The notes below the pieces were generated by a model that did not search any database, was not told the DNA's origin, and worked only from the letters and a program-made list of their open reading frames with translations. A DNA stretch of 64,000 nt, taken from positions 44,949 to 108,948 of the forward strand of contig JAGUYK010000026.1 of the NCBI GenBank assembly GCA_020061355.1, read 5' to 3'. The DNA comes from Ignavibacteriales bacterium. GTDB lineage: Bacteria; Bacteroidota; Ignavibacteria; Ignavibacteriales; Melioribacteraceae. Numbering within the stretch: position 1 is the stretch's first letter; every line of letters starts with the position of its first letter. The position numbers were made by a program, and so were the translations under genes. This document shows, piece by piece, positions 41,960-51,693 of this stretch.

Positions 41960-42601
41960 CTACTTATAAAGCAGCTTGAATGCATGTGTCCAATGATTAT
42001 ACTTAAAACCGAATTCAATCCATAACATAGCAAATGCTTCGAGCCAGAACGAATGCTTAATATCTCCCATATCAATAACATTCTGCCATCCAAAGCTTTG
42101 GGCAATTTCAATTACTTTCTTTTTAGCTCCTTGATTATTCCCGGCAATCAACAAATCTGGGTTTCCTTCTTCGAGTTTAGGATTGATCATAATTGCTGCG
42201 CTTACAGAATTAAATGCTTTAACAACCATAGATTCCGGCAACCAGCGCTGTATCTGTTCACCGGCAGAATTATCATAAGTTGCAGTAAATTTTGGAGGAA
42301 CTCCATTACTGAAATCAAGGGGATTGGTTATATCAATTACAATTTTATTTTTAAAATTATCTATACCAGCAAGTTTGATAGCATTTTCTGTTCCGCCCCA
42401 GAGTGTAGCAATTACAATTATATCACCGAATGAAGCAGCCTCTTTAAAACTTCCTACCGATGCATTGGGACCAGCAGATTGAAGCCAGTCATTAAGCTTA
42501 TTATTGTCTCGGGTTCCAAGTTTCACCTTGTTATCTGAATTTAGAAATCCAAGCCCAATTTGTTTTCCTACTGTTCCCGAACCGAGAATACCTACTTTCA
42601 T
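41960..42601 (-). CDS. NAD(P)-binding F420-dependent-oxidoreductase-like protein
   Basis: A 213-residue Rossmann-fold protein of the NADP oxidoreductase/F420-dependent family (COG2085-like). The dinucleotide site is GILGSGTVGKQIGLGFLNSDNKV; then LGTRDNNKLNDWL, where the Arg after the second strand suggests NADP(H), IVIATLWGGTENAI, VIDITNPLDFSNG and VVKAFNSVSAAIM. The family includes F420H2:NADP reductase, but homologues in organisms without F420 are common, so only NAD(P)-binding is secure. It is a single gene between tRNA-Leu and the amidoligase cluster; 76 bases separate it from the latter. Confidence 0.85.
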   Translation of the reverse strand: MKVGILGSGTVGKQIGLGFLNSDNKVKLGTRDNNKLNDWLQSAGPNASVGSFKEAASFGDIIVIATLWGGTENAIKLAGIDNFKNKIVIDITNPLDFSNGVPPKFTATYDNSAGEQIQRWLPESMVVKAFNSVSAAIMINPKLEEGNPDLLIAGNNQGAKKKVIEIAQSFGWQNVIDMGDIKHSFWLEAFAMLWIEFGFKYNHWTHAFKLLYK

Positions 42602-42677: not shown

Positions 42678-43853
42678 TCAAGGATGGTAAACGATATTTG
42701 ATCCAACCCAGGTTTTTCCTTTATTAAAATCGACACCCATCATTTTACCCTTACTCGTTCTAAGAAGGTTGTTTACAAGAACTGGCTTATCCAGCCAGAT
42801 GAACATCATACGGATTTCTGCACTGGAGAATTGATCTGGTGTTTCAATTAACGGGGCATATTCAACTTTATGCTGAAGTATATAATTTTCTCTTTCTGTA
42901 ATTTCATTGAGTATTTCTTTGTTAATATCAACTATAACGCCGGAGCCGGCGAATGAATAGAGTGGTTTAAGAACATAGTTTTCAAGATCATCAGGATAGT
43001 TATCAAGTTCATTCAAGTAGAAACAATCGGGTGCATAATTCCCTTTTATTAAAGGAAGAGAGTGTTTACTGACCTTAAAAAACCAGTTAGGATGACCAGC
43101 CCACTCAACTTCGAGTTGATTCCTGAAATCAAAATTGTATTTAATATTTTTCCTGATAAGTTCATCAAAAATAACACGGTTATAAATTCTATGAACTTCA
43201 GTTTTCTTTCCATCTAGATTATAAAAGAGTTTTTTTCCTACTTTATTAATCTTTGTAATACAGACCGGTTTTACACCGATTAATTTTTCAGTAATATAAA
43301 AATCGATTCGTGTTTTTTGTTTATGAGGTTCAATCTCGAGTAGAATAACATTTTCCGGTTTATGTTCACCAAGAATAGCTTGTTTTAACATAAAGAAATA
43401 TTCTTCTTCATTTAGCCCGCTAAAGTATGACCTGAAGTTATCAGGAATCCGATTATACTTTCTGTTTAACCGGTCCAGTTCTGCTTGAAAGGCATAAAGT
43501 GAAGGAAATCCCTGAAGCTCAATCAGTTTTGGTTCAGGAGTTCCATTTATATCTTGTGTAATTGCAAAGTCTACTTGAAGAAATATTGGATGAGAATCTT
43601 CGTTGGGTACAAAAAGTTGATTCGGGATTGCTCGTGCTGATAGTTCTTTAAATTTATCTGTCTGTAAGTATTCGACTATATCTTCTGCAGAGTTTTTAAG
43701 TTTATCGGTTAAGGCTTGTTCAATAAAAAGGGGTGTTTCACAAACTCTAAAATCTTCTTCACCATTAGTCCATCTCCATAGTTCTTTGATATAATTCTGA
43801 TATGTTAACTCAGAGAACCCGGAATTAAATTCTTTACGGATTTCAGGAATCAT
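42678..43853 (-). CDS. Predicted ATP-grasp-like ligase, unassigned (amidoligase cluster)
   Basis: Not a family I can name. The 391-residue protein has in its C-terminal half the layout of an ATP-grasp enzyme. ENYVLKPLYSFAGSGVIVDI looks like the lysine and glycine-rich ATP loop, ENYILQHKVEYAPLI fits the strand that contacts adenine, and SAEIRMMFIWLD plus GVDFNKGKTWVGSNIVY fit the metal-binding end. The N-terminal half contains VDFAITQDINGTPEPKLIELQGFPS, where ELQGFPS may bind a substrate. Its start overlaps the GCS2 gene stop by one base (TGATG), so both proteins are made together. I infer that it joins a further residue to the product of its neighbours. Confidence 0.7.
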   Translation of the reverse strand: MIPEIRKEFNSGFSELTYQNYIKELWRWTNGEEDFRVCETPLFIEQALTDKLKNSAEDIVEYLQTDKFKELSARAIPNQLFVPNEDSHPIFLQVDFAITQDINGTPEPKLIELQGFPSLYAFQAELDRLNRKYNRIPDNFRSYFSGLNEEEYFFMLKQAILGEHKPENVILLEIEPHKQKTRIDFYITEKLIGVKPVCITKINKVGKKLFYNLDGKKTEVHRIYNRVIFDELIRKNIKYNFDFRNQLEVEWAGHPNWFFKVSKHSLPLIKGNYAPDCFYLNELDNYPDDLENYVLKPLYSFAGSGVIVDINKEILNEITERENYILQHKVEYAPLIETPDQFSSAEIRMMFIWLDKPVLVNNLLRTSKGKMMGVDFNKGKTWVGSNIVYHP

Positions 43854-44962
43854 CAGATATTTAATCCCTGGTTAGTTTGTTCGATTATATAATCAACTAC
43901 CTTTTTAAGATCTTTCGTTTTCTCATAGACCTGTAATTGTCTGTATGCGCCGGTTTTCATTTTAAGAATTTCATTAATAAAATTTATCTCGTCCCGGCTA
44001 TCAAGCTCATCAATAACCTCATCCACAAAGTTGAGGAGTTCATGAATCAGATAAACAGTATCAACCTCCTCCTGTTTACCGAAATCGATCATTTTACCTT
44101 CAAGACCGTATCTTGCAGCTCTCCATTTATTTTCATTTATAAGCAATCTTCTATAAAGTCTGAAGCCAAGATTTTGTTTTAAGAGTTTATGAAGTTTAGC
44201 AACTACAGCCTGAATTAATGCAGCAATAGCGATCGTTTCATCAACGAGCATCGGGATATCGCAAATTCTTACTTCAAGTGTATTGAAAAAAGGATGCGGA
44301 CGGACATCCCACCAGATCCTTTTGGCATTATCAATACAACCTGTTTTAATAAGCAGATTTACATACGATTCAAACTCACCATAACTATTAAAATGATCAG
44401 GTATTCCGGTTCGAGGGAATCGGTCAAATATTTTAGTCCGGTACGACTTAAAACCTGTTTTTCTTCCCTTCCAGAAAGGGGATGTAGTAGAGAGAGCAAA
44501 AATATGAGGTAAAAAATAGCGGAGTGCATTCATAATATGGATTGCCTCTTCCTTGCTATCGAGCCCGATATGAACATGGAGACCAAAAATTAAATTAGCT
44601 CTTGCAACATCCTGCATATCCTCAACTACATCATGATACCTTGGATGATCAGTAATTTTCTGATCCTCCCATTTCGAAAAGGGATGAGTACCGGCTGCTG
44701 CAATCTCCAATCCATGATGTCTTGCGATATTAGCCAAGCTGCTTCTTAGCCGGATTACTTCTTTTCGGGCATCTTTTATATTATAGCAAATTTCGGAGCC
44801 GACTTCGACGACTGATTGGTGCATTTCCGCTTTAACTTGCTCCTTAAGAATTACTTTGCCTTCCCCCAATATTTGCTCAATATGCGATTTGAGTTCACGG
44901 GTTTGAGGATCTACGATCTGGAATTCCTCTTCTATTCCAATTGAAAATAGTTTATCTTCCAT
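43853..44962 (-). CDS. GCS2-family carboxylate-amine ligase (YbdK-like)
   Basis: A 369-residue ATP-dependent ligase of the glutamate-cysteine ligase type 2 family. Hallmarks: FSIGIEEEFQIVDPQTREL at the N-terminus, the acidic/metal residues in AEMHQSVVEVGSEIC, RHHGLEIAAAGTHPFSKW, the FGLHVHIGLDSKEEAI block and TLEVRICDIPMLVDETIA. Length is normal for YbdK-like ligases. YbdK itself has only weak glutamate-cysteine ligase activity, so the true amino-acid substrates are not known. It sits between two ATP-grasp genes, 16 bases after one and overlapping the other by one base. Confidence 0.93.
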   Translation of the reverse strand: MEDKLFSIGIEEEFQIVDPQTRELKSHIEQILGEGKVILKEQVKAEMHQSVVEVGSEICYNIKDARKEVIRLRSSLANIARHHGLEIAAAGTHPFSKWEDQKITDHPRYHDVVEDMQDVARANLIFGLHVHIGLDSKEEAIHIMNALRYFLPHIFALSTTSPFWKGRKTGFKSYRTKIFDRFPRTGIPDHFNSYGEFESYVNLLIKTGCIDNAKRIWWDVRPHPFFNTLEVRICDIPMLVDETIAIAALIQAVVAKLHKLLKQNLGFRLYRRLLINENKWRAARYGLEGKMIDFGKQEEVDTVYLIHELLNFVDEVIDELDSRDEINFINEILKMKTGAYRQLQVYEKTKDLKKVVDYIIEQTNQGLNI

Positions 44963-44978
44963 AGAGGTCCATCCTTAA

Positions 44979-45950
44979 CTATTTACCTTTTTTAGTCTTT
45001 GGAGCATCAGCATGAACAAAAAATTTAATAAATTCTCCCCACGTCAAATTATTCACAGTGGGTTTATAAGACTTAGCCTTCTTGATTGCCATATTTGCAG
45101 CAGCCTCAACTACCCATTCAAAATTCTCTTCACCAACGGAGTGTAAGTCTGCATCAGGGGCAGGGTTACAAAAGTCGATTGCATAAGGTACTCCATCCCT
45201 GATTGCGAACTCGACTGTATTAAAATCATAACCCAATCCTTTGTTTAAGGTAATTACATTTTGTTCTATATTTTTCAATAACTTAGCTTCAACAGGCAAA
45301 GGATTTTTAACATACCTTTCATGATGTGGAACTTTTGGATCATAACGCATTGTCCTAACATCCTTAAGTCCGATACAGTAGCATCTGAAATATTCCTCGA
45401 ATTCAATAGCTTCCTGGAGCATCATTACCAATTGACCTGTTTCGTTATAGGCTTTGAAGAATTCTTCAGCATTATTCAATTTATATACATTTTTCCATCC
45501 TCCTCCTGCAAATGGTTTGAAGAATGCAGGAAATCCTACATAGCTAAATATGCCTTCCCAATCGAGAGGGTAATCCAGGTTGCGAAAAGATCTTTCATTG
45601 GTATCAGGAGGATGTTGATTAGATGGGAGCAGGAGAGTCTTAGGTACAGGAACGGATAATTTCGTAGCCAATGAATTGTTAAAAAACTTCTCATCAGCAC
45701 TCCACCAGAAGGGATTATTTATCACTGCAGTTCCGGATAATGCAGCATTCTTAAGATAACCACGATAAAAAGGAACATCCTGTGAGATTCGATCAATAAT
45801 AACAGCATAATCTGAGGATTCTCCCTGAATCACTTTATTAATCTTAACAAACTCCGCAGTAATACCTGATTCTTTTTTAGAATTTACCCTATCTACGAAT
45901 GCCTGCGGGAATGTATTTTCCTGTCCGAATAGTATACCGATTTTTTTCAT
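44979..45950 (-). CDS. ATP-grasp domain ligase
   Basis: A 323-residue ATP-grasp enzyme. Residues about 130-160 hold the first ATP loop, FPAFFKPFAGGGWKNVYKL. MMLQEAIEFEEYFRCYCIGL marks the adenine-contacting strand and the following acidic motif. VEFAIRDGVPYAIDFCNPAPDADLH near residue 255 gives the Mg-binding Glu/Asp and Asn. Such enzymes form acyl-phosphates and join a carboxylate to an amine, thiol or similar group. It is transcribed before GCS2 with a 16-base gap and after the esterase with 106 bases. The lysine-rich tail (DAPKTKKGK) is unremarkable. Substrate unknown. Confidence 0.85.
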   Translation of the reverse strand: MKKIGILFGQENTFPQAFVDRVNSKKESGITAEFVKINKVIQGESSDYAVIIDRISQDVPFYRGYLKNAALSGTAVINNPFWWSADEKFFNNSLATKLSVPVPKTLLLPSNQHPPDTNERSFRNLDYPLDWEGIFSYVGFPAFFKPFAGGGWKNVYKLNNAEEFFKAYNETGQLVMMLQEAIEFEEYFRCYCIGLKDVRTMRYDPKVPHHERYVKNPLPVEAKLLKNIEQNVITLNKGLGYDFNTVEFAIRDGVPYAIDFCNPAPDADLHSVGEENFEWVVEAAANMAIKKAKSYKPTVNNLTWGEFIKFFVHADAPKTKKGK

Positions 45951-46056
45951 GCTAACCTCTTAATTTTTCTTATCACACTTTAACTAAAATGTAAGATCAA
46001 GAATGTAATCAAGATCAAAATCATGAATCTTATTTTCATAATGCCAATAAAAGACA

Positions 46057-46776
46057 CTAACCAATTTTTGAAAGATAGTGAGGGAACATTTCTTTCCACC
46101 AGGGCCAATCATGTCCTGTACCCTGCGGAATATCGAGCCAATGGTTAATTCCTTTTGAAGAGAGAATTCCGCTCATTCTTTTATTTTCATCAAGACAAAT
46201 ATCCCACTCTCCTGTTCCGAGAATAATCCCCATTCTTTTGATTCTTTCGAGATGCCAATCATCGCTTAAATTGTTCATGTAATCAGGCGGATTATTAAAG
46301 TAGCAGTTGTCATCATACCAGCCCATAATAAATTGTTTTATATCGTAGGCGCCTCCCATAGTAAAAAGGTAGCTTACTTTATCCGGGTTACGGAATGCAA
46401 TATTGAGGGCATGATAACCACCAAAGCTGCATCCTGCAACTCCAACTGTTTTCGAACCTGTCTCATATTTTGCAAACTCAATTACATCATTAAGTATTAC
46501 TCTTTCGTAAGCCATGTGGGTCTTTACCCGATCAGCCGGATGAATTCCATAATTATACCAGCTCTGGCTATCAATTCCATCAGGGCAATAAATTTTTATT
46601 TTACCGGCTTCAATTAACTGCCCGGCTGAACCAACCAGACCAAAATCCTTATTTTCAAAGTATCTTCCCTTTGATGTAGGGAACAGGATTACCGGGAAAC
46701 CGGAATGTCCGAAAACAAGCATTTCAAAATCTCTGCTTAAATACTGTGTGTACCATTTGTGATAAAATTCTTGCAT
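46057..46776 (-). CDS. Alpha/beta-hydrolase, esterase-like
   Basis: A 239-residue hydrolase resembling the putative esterase/EntE-associated (Fes-like, esterase D) group. Nucleophile: GVAGCSFGGYHALNIAF (GxSxG, about residue 115). Acid: GTGEWDICLDENKRM. Base: GTGHDWPWWKEMFPHYL. No signal peptide, so it is cytoplasmic. It is the likely first gene of the amidoligase cluster and could hydrolyse or transfer the product. Alternatives such as a stand-alone carboxylesterase are not excluded. Confidence 0.82.
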   Translation of the reverse strand: MQEFYHKWYTQYLSRDFEMLVFGHSGFPVILFPTSKGRYFENKDFGLVGSAGQLIEAGKIKIYCPDGIDSQSWYNYGIHPADRVKTHMAYERVILNDVIEFAKYETGSKTVGVAGCSFGGYHALNIAFRNPDKVSYLFTMGGAYDIKQFIMGWYDDNCYFNNPPDYMNNLSDDWHLERIKRMGIILGTGEWDICLDENKRMSGILSSKGINHWLDIPQGTGHDWPWWKEMFPHYLSKIG

Positions 46777-47022: not shown

Positions 47023-48021
47023 CTAAGCATGAGTTTTATAACTTTGAAGGAGCTTCATATAATTTGCTCTTTCGAATGCCGCCGGCTGAGCAATTTTTTT
47101 CTGGCTCATACTTCCCTTCATCATTTTGATCGAATCGTATTCATTTTTTTCCATCCACTCCTTCATTCCGTCAAGTATCTCTGTAATTCTACCAATCCCC
47201 TTGACAAGCAGTTCTGAAGCCATCATGGCTACATCGCCGCCAGCCATCATAACTTTAATAACATCTTCATGGGAATGAATTCCACTTGTAGCGCCGAGAG
47301 ATGCTTTAACATTATCATAAAGAATTGCAATCCATCTTAGCGGCAAACGCATTTCCCAATTCGAACTTAATACAAGATTAGGCACTACTTCAAGATTCTC
47401 GAGATCGAAATCGGGTTGATAGAATCTATTAAACAGTACTAATCCGTCTGCACCGGCTTTATCCAATCTTCTTGCCATGTTAGATGTTGATGTGAAGAAA
47501 GGACTCAATTTCATTGCAACGGGAATCTTAACATTCTTTTTCACTTCTGTTAGCACATCCACATACATAGTTTCTACTTCTGAGCCGGTAATATTTGGAT
47601 TGGTTGCAATGTAATAAACATTCAATTCAAGAGCGTCGGCACCAGCCTGTTCGATATTCTTTGCATACTTTATCCATCCACCGGTGCTAACACCATTTAA
47701 GCTTCCGATAACAGGAATGTTAACAGCTTTCTTTAAATTGGCGATATGATCAAGATATTGAAACGGTGTTAAATGAAACTGTTCAGGTTCAGGAAAATAG
47801 CTTAATGCTTCCGCATAACTTTCCGTTCCGTAAGAGAGGTAATGATCGAGTTCACCTGATTCGTGTGTAATTTGTTCTTCAAACAATGAATAGACAACCA
47901 CTGCAGCAGCTCCTGCATCCTCCATCTTTTTTACATTATCGACACTCTGGGATAACGGAGATGAAGACGGCACGATGGGATTCTTTAATTTCAATCCCAT
48001 ATATGTTGTTGTTAGATCCAT
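47023..48021 (-). CDS. Dihydroorotate dehydrogenase-like flavoprotein
   Basis: A 332-residue TIM-barrel flavoprotein of the DHODH superfamily. It has [20 protein letters not shown] (FMN/phosphate-type N-terminus), [49 protein letters not shown] (Lys of the FMN site) and the final barrel motif [15 protein letters not shown]. It lacks the usual base-loop Cys/Ser context of true PyrD, so orotate synthesis is uncertain. It lies 81 bases downstream of nifJ on the same strand and is likely co-transcribed. In this gene pair it may use electrons from, or pass them to, ferredoxin, but that is speculation. Confidence 0.82.
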
Positions 48022-48059
48022 AAATTAACTCCTATATTTAAAATTTTAGACCCGTTTAC

Positions 48060-48088
48060 CGGACCGGAGAATTTTATTCCCCGATCCG
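48060..48088 (-). other. Imperfect hairpin between nifJ and DHODH-like gene
   Basis: CGGACCGGAGAA (48060-48071) pairs with TTCCCCGATCCG (48077-48088) with two mismatches around a 5-base loop. No U-run follows, so read-through into the DHODH-like gene is expected. Confidence 0.4.
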
Positions 48089-48102
48089 TTCAAGGATTGA
48101 AT

Positions 48103-51100
48103 TTAATTCTCTTTTTTCTCAACGCTTCCATTATTCGAATAATCGAATGCAGCCATCTGCTCATATAATTTCCAGCGTTTCAATACTTCTTCCTGAGCAG
48201 AGATTAGAAGTTCTTTAGCTTCTTTCGGATGCGATTTAGTTAACATCTTATAGCGTGTTTCTTTATAGATATAGTCTTCCAGTTTAATCTTCGGAGCTTT
48301 GGAATCGAGTTTAAGAGGATTTTTTCCTTCTTTCAGATTTTCAGGATGATAACGGAACAAGGTCCAATAACCGCTTTCCACAGCAAGTTTCTGACTATCC
48401 ATTCCTTTAGCCATATTAATTCCATGAGCGATGCAATGGCTATAAGCTATTATTATAGATGGACCGTCATAAGCTTCAGCTTCAAGGAAGGCGCGGACAG
48501 TTTGAGCATCGTTAGCACCCATAGCAACTCTTGCAACGTAAACGTTTCCATAGTTTATGGCCATCATAGCAAGATCTTTCTTAGCATTTGGTTTTCCTGC
48601 AGCGGCAAATTTAGCAACTGCACCCATTCCGGTTGCTTTAGACATCTGTCCTCCGGTATTAGAGTAGACTTCTGTATCGAGAACAAGAATGTTAACATTT
48701 TTACCGGATGCGATAACATGGTCCAATCCGCCATAACCGATATCATATGCCCATCCGTCACCGCCAATAATCCATACAGACTTTTTAACAAGATAATCGG
48801 CAGCTTCCAATAATTTTTCAGTCTGAGGAGATTTAATACTTTGTAGTTTTTTCTTTAATTCAGCAACACGTTCTCTCTGTTCATAAATACCGGTCTCATC
48901 TTTCTGATCTGCATTTATTATAGAATCAGCAAACTCTTTACCGAGCTGTTCACTTAATCTTCCTAACAATTCTTTTGCGAATTGATTCTGTTTATCAATT
49001 GCAAGACGCATACCCATACCGAACTCGGCATTATCCTCGAACAAGGAATTTGACCATGCAGGACCACGACCTTCTTTATTGACAGCCCATGGTGTTGTTG
49101 GTAAGTTGCCGCCATAGATTGAAGAACAACCGGTTGCATTTGCAACCATTGTTCGATCACCGAACAATTGTGAGACGAGTTTAACATAAGGAGTTTCACC
49201 GCAACCCGAGCATGCACCGGAAAATTCAAACAATGGTTCGAGAAGCTGGTTGCTTTTAATTAAGGCTGTGTTGACTAGACGTCTATCAATTTCAGGAAGT
49301 TCAAGGAAATAATCGAAATTTACTCTCTCCTGTTCCCTGATCGGTATCTGCGGAATCATATTAAGAGCTTTGAGGCGTGTTTCTTTTTTATTTTTTGCCG
49401 GACATACTTCAAAGCATAATTCGCAGCCTGTACAATCCTCTGCAGCAACCTGAATTGTATATGCATATCCTTCGGGAAATTCTTTCCCTTTTGCATCCAT
49501 AAATTTGAATGAAGCAGGTTTGTCATCAAGATATTTTTTATCATACACTTTAATTCTTATTGCAGCATGCGGGCAGACAAGGGCACATTTACCGCACTGG
49601 ATACACCATTCGAGATCCCATTCTGGAACTTCGAGGGCGATGTTTCTCTTTTCCCATCTTGTTGTTGCTGAAGGGAATGTACCGTCAATAGGCATTTCAC
49701 TTACTTTAACTTCATCGCCTTTACCAGCCATCATCTTTGCAAGAACATTCTTAACATAATCTGGAGCTTTTTCCGAGACAATCGGAGGAAGTTCAATAGT
49801 ACTTGTTGTTTGTGCCGGTACATCAATCTGGTACAAATGAGCAAGGGTCTGGTCAACAGCTTCATAATTCTTTTTAACTATATCCTCCCCTTTAGCACCG
49901 TAAGTTTTCTTAATTGATTTCTTAATCTGCTCTATAGCTTCATCTTTTGGAAGGACACCGGATATTGCAAAGAAGCAGGTTTGCATTATTGTATTAACCC
50001 TGCCACCCATTCCAGTTGCAGTAGCAACTGCGTAACCGTCGATTGCATAGACTTTCAGTTTTTTATCAATTATCTGCTGCTGAACTTTTTTAGGAAGTTT
50101 ATCCCATGTTTCTTCTTTACTGAATGGCGAATTAATCAAGAATGTTCCGCCTTCAATAATTTTCTCCAGTACATCGAATTTTTCAAGAAGTCCGAATGAA
50201 TGGCAGCCGACAAATTTCGCTGTCTGAATAAGATAAGTTGAATGAATCGGTTTAGGTCCGAATCTTAAATGTGATATAGTAGTAGAGCCGGATTTTTTCG
50301 AATCATAAACAAAATATCCCTGGGCATAATTTTCAGTTTCTTCACCTATGATCTTAATCGAATTTTTATTTGCACCGACTGTTCCGTCTGCGCCCAATCC
50401 GTAGAAAAGGCATCTAACAACAGAATCGGGATCGGTCATAAAGTTTGGATCGTAATCTAAACTTGTAAAAGTTACGTCATCATTTATTCCAACTGTGAAA
50501 TGATTTTTAGGTTCATCCAATTTCAGATTATCAAATACAGCTTTAACCATTGTCGGAGTAAATTCTTTAGATGAGAGACCATAGCGCCCACCGACAATCT
50601 TGGGCATTTTAGAAAATGGAGGATTATTCGAAGCCATTGCCTCTGAAATTGCAGCTACGATATCAAGATGTAGCGGTTCACTAAGTGCGCCGGGTTCTTT
50701 TGTTCTATCTAAGACAGCGATTTTTTCGGTTGTTTTTGGCAGTTCTTCAAGAAAATGCTTTGCCGAAAACGGTCTATACAATCTTACTTTAATAATACCA
50801 ACTTTTTCTTCCATTCTTTCAGTTAAATACTCTACTGTTTCCTGGGCAGTCTCCGCACCGGAGCCCATTAAAATAACGACTCGTTTTGCATCAGGGGCGC
50901 CGTAATAATCGAATAATTTGTATTGACGGCCTGTTATCTTTGCAAACTGATTCATTGCATTCTCAACAATCTCCGGACATGCATTATAAAATTTATTAAC
51001 AGTCTCTCTTCCCTGGAAATAGACATCGGGATTCTGAGCCGTACCACGTATGAAAGGATTCTCAGGATTTAATGCTCTTTTCTTGAATTCTGCAACAGAT

Positions 51101-51693
51101 TTAGGGTCGATCATTTCATTAAGATCTTCATCCGATAACTCTTCCATCTTCATTACCTCAGATGAAGTTCTGAATCCATCGAAAAAATGGATGAAAGGAA
51201 TTCTTGATTCAAGTGATGCTTTATGTGTGATAATAGCCGTATCCATAACTTCCTGCACTGAATTCGAGCAGATAAGTCCGAATCCTGTTTGTCGTGTTGC
51301 CATTACGTCGCTATGATCACCAAAGATTGATAAAGCAGCAGCAGCTAATGAACGGGCACTTACATGGAAAACAGCCGGAGTCAGTTCTCCTGCAATTTTA
51401 TACATATTAGGAATCATAAGGAGTAATCCCTGTGAAGCGGTAAATGTTGTTGTAAGAGCACCGCTTTGAAGAGCTCCGTGAACTGCACCGGAAGCTCCAC
51501 CTTCGCTCTGCATTTCGGTTACAGATGGAACTGTTCCCCAGATATTTTTATCAAGACGAGCAGCCCATGCATCCGAAAGTTCACCCATAGTTGATGAAGG
51601 AGTTATCGGGTAGATTGCAATTACCTCGCTTACACGGTATGCAACAGATGCAGCGGCTTCATTACCGTCAATAGTTATTTTTTTTCTTTCCAT
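48103..51693 (-). CDS. nifJ: Pyruvate:ferredoxin (flavodoxin) oxidoreductase
   Basis: A homodimer-type enzyme converting pyruvate and CoA to acetyl-CoA, CO2 and reduced ferredoxin, reversibly. The 1196-residue single chain contains all domains: TPP-pyrimidine domain at the N-terminus (IAIYPITPSSTMGELSDAWA), the gamma-type domain about 420-630, two 4Fe-4S ferredoxin-like motifs about 690-755 (WCIQCGKCALVCPHAA and DCTGCELCFEVCPAK), and the C-terminal TPP-binding half with the third cluster site SGACSGCGETPYVKL, GGDGWAYDIGYGGLDH and TEVYSNTGGQMSKAT. Size is normal. It marks anaerobic pyruvate metabolism. Transcribed first, before the DHODH-like gene. Upstream (51694-52185) is a long non-coding gap. 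Confidence 0.98.
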   Translation of the reverse strand: MERKKITIDGNEAAASVAYRVSEVIAIYPITPSSTMGELSDAWAARLDKNIWGTVPSVTEMQSEGGASGAVHGALQSGALTTTFTASQGLLLMIPNMYKIAGELTPAVFHVSARSLAAAALSIFGDHSDVMATRQTGFGLICSNSVQEVMDTAIITHKASLESRIPFIHFFDGFRTSSEVMKMEELSDEDLNEMIDPKSVAEFKKRALNPENPFIRGTAQNPDVYFQGRETVNKFYNACPEIVENAMNQFAKITGRQYKLFDYYGAPDAKRVVILMGSGAETAQETVEYLTERMEEKVGIIKVRLYRPFSAKHFLEELPKTTEKIAVLDRTKEPGALSEPLHLDIVAAISEAMASNNPPFSKMPKIVGGRYGLSSKEFTPTMVKAVFDNLKLDEPKNHFTVGINDDVTFTSLDYDPNFMTDPDSVVRCLFYGLGADGTVGANKNSIKIIGEETENYAQGYFVYDSKKSGSTTISHLRFGPKPIHSTYLIQTAKFVGCHSFGLLEKFDVLEKIIEGGTFLINSPFSKEETWDKLPKKVQQQIIDKKLKVYAIDGYAVATATGMGGRVNTIMQTCFFAISGVLPKDEAIEQIKKSIKKTYGAKGEDIVKKNYEAVDQTLAHLYQIDVPAQTTSTIELPPIVSEKAPDYVKNVLAKMMAGKGDEVKVSEMPIDGTFPSATTRWEKRNIALEVPEWDLEWCIQCGKCALVCPHAAIRIKVYDKKYLDDKPASFKFMDAKGKEFPEGYAYTIQVAAEDCTGCELCFEVCPAKNKKETRLKALNMIPQIPIREQERVNFDYFLELPEIDRRLVNTALIKSNQLLEPLFEFSGACSGCGETPYVKLVSQLFGDRTMVANATGCSSIYGGNLPTTPWAVNKEGRGPAWSNSLFEDNAEFGMGMRLAIDKQNQFAKELLGRLSEQLGKEFADSIINADQKDETGIYEQRERVAELKKKLQSIKSPQTEKLLEAADYLVKKSVWIIGGDGWAYDIGYGGLDHVIASGKNVNILVLDTEVYSNTGGQMSKATGMGAVAKFAAAGKPNAKKDLAMMAINYGNVYVARVAMGANDAQTVRAFLEAEAYDGPSIIIAYSHCIAHGINMAKGMDSQKLAVESGYWTLFRYHPENLKEGKNPLKLDSKAPKIKLEDYIYKETRYKMLTKSHPKEAKELLISAQEEVLKRWKLYEQMAAFDYSNNGSVEKKEN

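Follow-up and report, generated by a model that had tools for sequence, protein, structure and literature searches.

A stretch of 64,000 nucleotides from an Ignavibacteriales bacterium (Melioribacteraceae; assembly GCA_020061355.1, contig JAGUYK010000026.1, positions 44,949 to 108,948; hereafter the window) carries four adjacent minus-strand genes, three of which encode ligases that very likely serve one pathway. These three core members are AG1 (44979-45950, minus strand), a predicted RimK/LysX-like ATP-grasp ligase of 323 residues; GCS (43853-44962, minus strand), a YbdK-type GCS2 carboxylate-amine ligase of 369 residues; and AG2 (42678-43853, minus strand), a predicted circularly permuted ATP-grasp ligase of 391 residues from a family without a Pfam or NCBIfam match. 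We consider it probable that a single dedicated pathway builds a small peptide or peptide-amine with AG1, GCS and AG2 as its ligases and with hydrolysis by one of two further proteins, which family scans identify as a class-I glutamine-amidotransferase-like protein (GAT) and an unrelated metallo-aminopeptidase (M29). Our best reading is that the pathway makes, and trims or recycles, a gamma-glutamyl-type peptide or amide. The fourth of these adjacent genes, EST, is an optional accessory.

A conserved unit of three ligase genes

An earlier note on this DNA, made from the letters alone, had described four adjacent minus-strand genes of which the last three are tightly spaced, and all four open reading frames are in place in the window. 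AG1 and GCS lie 16 bases apart, and the stop codon of GCS overlaps the start codon of AG2 by one base in the sequence TGATG (43851-43855, minus strand), which suggests translational coupling. EST is packed more loosely than the ligase genes, as 106 bases separate its end from the start of AG1.

A search of the genomes of 98 relatives found AG2 in 46, among them that of the window; the window and regions fetched from 40 of the 45 other AG2-positive genomes make up a set of 41 loci, in which the neighborhoods of the cluster genes were counted by tblastn. AG1, GCS and AG2 occur in the same order and on the same strand in all 41 (including L036, whose contig begins inside AG1 and retains only its tail). 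The three ligases are thus one conserved unit, and their arrangement is beyond chance because order and strand are conserved throughout; for these three genes the case is stronger than the earlier note had put it. When a collection of 84,980 species was scanned with a pattern, at least 590 AG2 relatives came up, of which the best 80, a set that overlaps the 41 loci, were kept (below, the 80 loci, always the best 80 of at least 590). They come mostly from Ignavibacteria and other Bacteroidota, with some labelled Verrucomicrobia, Calditrichaeota, Cloacimonetes, Acidobacteria or Thermoanaerobaculia. Within 8 kilobases (kb) of AG2 lie AG1 in 53 of the 80 loci, GCS in 54 and both in 50, and every one of these 50 has the order AG1-GCS-AG2; AG2 is without AG1 or GCS nearby in 23 of the 80, short contigs having cut some loci. 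The order of the ligases holds in all 41 loci, but EST is near in 23 of them.

One GCS2 ligase and two ATP-grasp folds

By its sequence, GCS is unambiguously the GCS2/YbdK ligase that it had been taken for, scoring above the cut-off of three models: 238.3 bits against PF04107 (cut-off 21) in the Pfam scan, and, in NCBIfam, 543.9 bits against the carboxylate-amine ligase model NF010039 (cut-off 371) and 317.5 bits against TIGR02050 (cut-off 176.4). The GhExE signature reads GIEEE at G9-E13, and E11 and E13 are kept in 96 of 97 homologues, the remaining one having a gap. An assignment of GCS as the ergothioneine enzyme EgtA was rejected, at 11.9 bits against TIGR03444 (cut-off 370.8).

The two partners of GCS are identified through structure models. 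AG1 matches no Pfam family at E≤1 and, at 24.6 bits against the RimK model TIGR00768 (cut-off 143.4), falls outside the RimK family by score; its model has the RimK/LysX fold, with RimK and LysX/ArgX as the nearest structures, and a sequence search of the PDB gives weak ATP-grasp matches. Compared with the RimK, LysX and ArgX ligases, AG1 is far under the family cut-off, and no LysW-like carrier was seen. AG2 matches no family at E≤1 in either Pfam or NCBIfam. Along its whole length, its model shows a circularly permuted ATP-grasp fold, with YgiC as the nearest structure, and YgiC is also the sole match of AG2 in the PDB sequence search (weak, E 0.23). The aspartate and glutamate of the YgiC motifs RxD and ExN are kept in 130 of 130 AG2 sequences. 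These models predict that AG1 and AG2 are both ATP-grasp enzymes and that they differ in fold. The earlier reading of AG1 as an ATP-grasp enzyme is borne out in this way, as is that of the unnamed fourth protein, AG2, as ATP-grasp-like; far from lacking an ATP site, the AG2 model shows the complete ATP-grasp fold, and its site residues are conserved.

AG2 shares with E. coli YgiC, YjfC and glutathionylspermidine synthetase the fold, but neither a Pfam or NCBIfam match nor the intact RxD and ExN motifs; it is about 20% identical to YgiC, and it works beside a GCS2 ligase and a second ATP-grasp protein.

Co-occurrence across the Bacteroidota

In a sample of 395 Bacteroidota genomes, AG2 is found in 115 (in G005 as a short fragment only), AG1 in 134 (135 before a weak match in G053 was dropped) and GCS, at E≤1e-60, in 129. 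Of these, 117 reach 430 bits and are called strong GCS; this line was placed post hoc, where the scores drop from 438 to 367 bits. AG1, AG2 and strong GCS occur together in 105 genomes; of the 115 genomes with AG2, 110 also carry AG1 and 109 strong GCS. Fisher values for the co-occurrence are below 1e-65, shared ancestry being ignored. More telling than these values is the co-occurrence of AG1 and AG2 where they are unlinked: in 49 of the 110 genomes having both, the two do not lie within 8 kb on one contig, and in 10 of those 49 a single contig carries both at a distance of 11 kb to 3.2 Mb. Broken assemblies account for some of the 49. Homologues are not scattered independently among relatives, since scattered genes still occur together, and GCS still adjoins AG1 in 4 of 12 fetched regions around unlinked AG1 genes (L182, L183, L188 and L189).

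Two further arrangements were seen at AG1 genes away from AG2. GAT adjoins AG1, with AG2 not nearby, in L195, L197, L198 and L201, and in these four a CP_ATPgrasp_2 protein sits between AG1 and GAT in the place of GCS (L195:7643-9058; 37.3 bits against PF14403, scanned in L195 alone). In L184 (7650-9185) and L187 an aromatic amino acid lyase directly follows the unlinked AG1; the L184 protein, the one scanned, scores 653.6 bits against PF00221.

Two mutually exclusive, probable hydrolases

The probable hydrolase step, GAT or M29, was missed by the earlier note and is encoded elsewhere in the window's genome, where GAT lies on another contig (G000:C7:309793-310599) than the cluster (C5). This protein belongs to the class-I superfamily, at 32.6 bits against PF00117 (cut-off 22.8); a sequence search of the PDB with GAT gave no match at E≤0.1. 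The catalytic triad C107, H210 and E212 is present in 72 of 72 GAT sequences. In relatives, GAT or M29 sits between GCS and AG2, and no locus has both: GAT is near in 13 of the 41 loci and M29 in 3, and within 8 kb of AG2 in the 80 loci the counts are 41 and 18, with GAT directly upstream of AG2 in 38.

GAT, M29 and EST were then sought in 52 chosen genomes, namely 22 where the cluster is linked, 13 where its genes are scattered and 17 that lack AG2 (cluster-free), with M29 counted as cluster-type at 577 bits or more and a common remote paralogue (at most 125 bits) left out. Among the linked-cluster genomes, 17 have GAT, the other 5 have cluster-type M29 and none has both; GAT is on another contig or far from the cluster in 15 of the 17. 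Cluster-free genomes have GAT in 1 of 17 (G453, where its surroundings are similar to those in cluster genomes) and cluster-type M29 in none, and GAT is present in 4 of the 13 scattered-gene genomes. Three same-genus pairs, one genome with the cluster and one without (G049/G034, G035/G050 and G038/G052), show GAT tracking the cluster, though unlinked to it. Around GAT in 13 genomes, no further pathway gene was recognized among the scanned neighbors, all of an ordinary kind: Sua5, inositol phosphatase, M24 peptidase, histidine kinase, sulfite exporter, adenylate cyclase and a tricorn-like protease.

What, then, might GAT and M29 do? Because an aminopeptidase replaces the amidotransferase-like GAT without overlap, hydrolysis of an amide bond is favored over ammonia supply, and the exchange suggests the former as their step.

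A proposed pathway

From the observed genes, their linkage and co-occurrence, the mutually exclusive hydrolases and the conserved catalytic residues, and from the predicted folds, we infer bond types, an order of steps, substrates and a product as follows. GCS would form a gamma-glutamyl-type bond, and AG1 and AG2 would each add a further unit via the acyl-phosphate chemistry that is general for ATP-grasp ligases (PMC12568646). AG2, in the place of glutathione synthetase or YgiC, may attach an amino acid or an amine to a short peptide, so that successive ATP-dependent amide bonds would build a small peptide or peptide-amine. GAT, or M29 in other lineages, would cleave off one residue, either removing a temporary gamma-glutamyl group or recycling the product, and EST would be an optional accessory. 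That enzymes acting in sequence could build a short peptide had already been proposed for these genes; the part of the proposal that rests on the ligases is supported, as they are conserved as a unit, but EST is not integral to it and the hydrolase was absent from it.

Several observations weigh against this pathway. Five AG2 genomes are without AG1 and six are without strong GCS; conversely, 8 genomes have strong GCS without AG2 and 24 have AG1 without AG2, so that AG1 functions in other contexts too. Shared ancestry accounts for part of the co-occurrence. In 125 of 130 AG2 sequences Q, A, V or S replaces the arginine of the YgiC RxD motif, and all 130 have Q instead of the asparagine of ExN, the motif reading ELQ. 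Finally, both GAT and cluster-type M29 are missing from 9 of the 13 scattered-gene genomes, which means that the hydrolase is either not universal or exists in additional forms.

Three ligases that co-occur in 105 of 395 genomes point to a widespread small molecule without a name in annotation, and a hydrolase that tracks them in the tested genomes adds to this reading. More tentatively, and with somewhat less than even confidence, we suggest a new metabolite in about a quarter of the sampled Bacteroidota species, made by three stand-alone ligases of three folds and trimmed by either of two hydrolases that are unrelated and interchangeable; it would represent a new class of non-ribosomal peptide or peptide-amine with a general physiological role. 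The system is small enough for reconstitution in vitro, which could directly reveal a metabolite that many Bacteroidota make, and the replacement of GAT by an unrelated aminopeptidase gives a concrete hint of how one step works chemically.

Stand-alone amidoligase pathways are already known; we did not find this combination with interchangeable hydrolases described, and the gene set is absent from the titles and abstracts that a literature search returned, most subscription journals being outside its reach. The 2009 amidoligase survey of Iyer and colleagues may predict such operons. No NCBIfam model for the enzymes of NAGGN synthesis was matched at E≤1 by AG1, GCS, AG2 or EST, the four proteins of the genome that were searched. 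Closer in kind is a related ligase family of GCS2 size found next to a GAT-like thiol peptidase, which PMC2588565 predicts to synthesize a peptide metabolite; there, as here, a ligase of the same superfamily accompanies a GAT-like hydrolase, but the ligase family is another one, and our cluster has two ATP-grasp proteins and M29 as an alternative hydrolase. The fungal enzyme Cp1B of E-64 synthesis differs in making a protease inhibitor from epoxysuccinate, and no GCS2 partner is seen in the accessible part of its description (PMC12568646).

Alternative explanations

Could the genes instead handle an amine by way of a removable gamma-glutamyl group? In such a scheme, modelled on PuuA and PuuD, GCS would glutamylate a polyamine or another amine, which the ATP-grasp proteins would modify and GAT would deglutamylate. 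The class-I triad in every GAT sequence and the aminopeptidase that takes the place of GAT are consistent with this scheme, as is the name of YgiC, the nearest structure to AG2, as a 'peptide--spermidine ligase' in its E. coli record. We nevertheless think the scheme unlikely, as no recurring amine oxidase or polyamine gene appears in the family-scanned neighborhoods (in which not every neighbor was scanned) and GAT is not close to any solved structure. By analogy, a polyamine end of the product is possible within the peptide pathway as well, since YgiC and YjfC are peptide-spermidine ligases by record name.

Slightly less likely is a glutathione-like thiol, for which GCS would make gamma-glutamylcysteine, AG2 would act as a eukaryotic-type glutathione synthetase and AG1 would add a residue. 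Eukaryotic-type glutathione biosynthesis does use the same two kinds of enzyme as GCS and AG2, a GCS2 ligase and a permuted glutathione synthetase, but glutathione needs neither a third ligase nor a hydrolase, and the cluster has an additional ATP-grasp protein and a hydrolase. The bacillithiol enzyme BshC (PF10079) is moreover present in 384 of the 395 genomes, the window's included, in a distribution that is not complementary, and so replacement of bacillithiol is unlikely; among the 11 genomes without BshC, two (G195 and G310) contain AG2. Glutathione as the whole answer is unlikely.

That GAT feeds ammonia to AG2 to give a peptide amide, an analogue of NAGGN-type solutes, is quite improbable: the position of GAT directly upstream of AG2 in 38 of the 80 loci agrees with it, but M29 substitutes for GAT without overlap, GAT lies apart from the cluster in 15 of the 17 linked-cluster genomes that carry it, and in L195, L197, L198 and L201 it stands next to AG1 instead. 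A protein- or carrier-modifying system, in which AG1 would add residues to a protein as its nearest structures RimK and LysX/ArgX do, is most improbable of all, given the score of AG1 far under the RimK cut-off and no recurring small carrier-like gene among clustered reading frames of at least 60 residues, the lengths covered.

The esterase and other neighbors

EST (46057-46776, minus strand), an alpha/beta-hydrolase of 239 residues, resembles PF00756 weakly (25 bits, cut-off 22), and S117 of its GCSFG motif is kept in 43 of 50 homologues. It had been thought an integral part of a four-gene system, and this does not hold up. Besides the 23 of 41 loci given above, EST is near AG2 in 30 of the 80, and at 260 bits or more it is found in 14 of the 22 linked-cluster genomes and is retained in 4 of the 17 cluster-free ones (G012, G050, G052 and G058). 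Unlike GAT, EST does not track the cluster, being kept in the cluster-free members G050 and G052 of the same-genus pairs. We rejected it as a fixed fourth member on these grounds.

Extra genes in relatives fit a role in peptide metabolism and fix no product. For example, a third ATP-grasp protein (PF13535), an M17 aminopeptidase and a second esterase accompany 5 of the 80 loci (L104, L116, L126, L127 and L139), and an amidohydrolase adjoins AG2 or GAT in, among others, L107, L118, L131, L204, L206, L207, L214 and L241. A sodium:solute symporter gene lies directly upstream of AG2 in L105 and L216 (as separate genes in L216), and in L211 (4637-7240, plus strand) a sodium:solute symporter (PF00474) and AG2 share, as assembled, a single 867-residue frame.

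In the window, AG2 is followed on the same strand by an NADPH-dependent F420-reductase-like gene (41960-42601; 61.1 bits against PF03807, and 83.1 bits against TIGR01915, under its cut-off of 149.8), whose homologues, by clustering of the reading frames, follow AG2 in only 4 of the 41 loci. Before EST, at 47023-51693 on the same strand, are two genes recognized by eye, one dihydroorotate-dehydrogenase-like and one encoding a 1196-residue pyruvate:ferredoxin-oxidoreductase-like protein, whose homologues accompany the cluster in 12 and 11 of the 41 loci, respectively. In 14 of the 41 loci, including L041, L043, L044, L048 and L050, a protein of about 1240 residues with an alpha-amylase domain (PF00128, scanned in L043) is encoded downstream of AG2.
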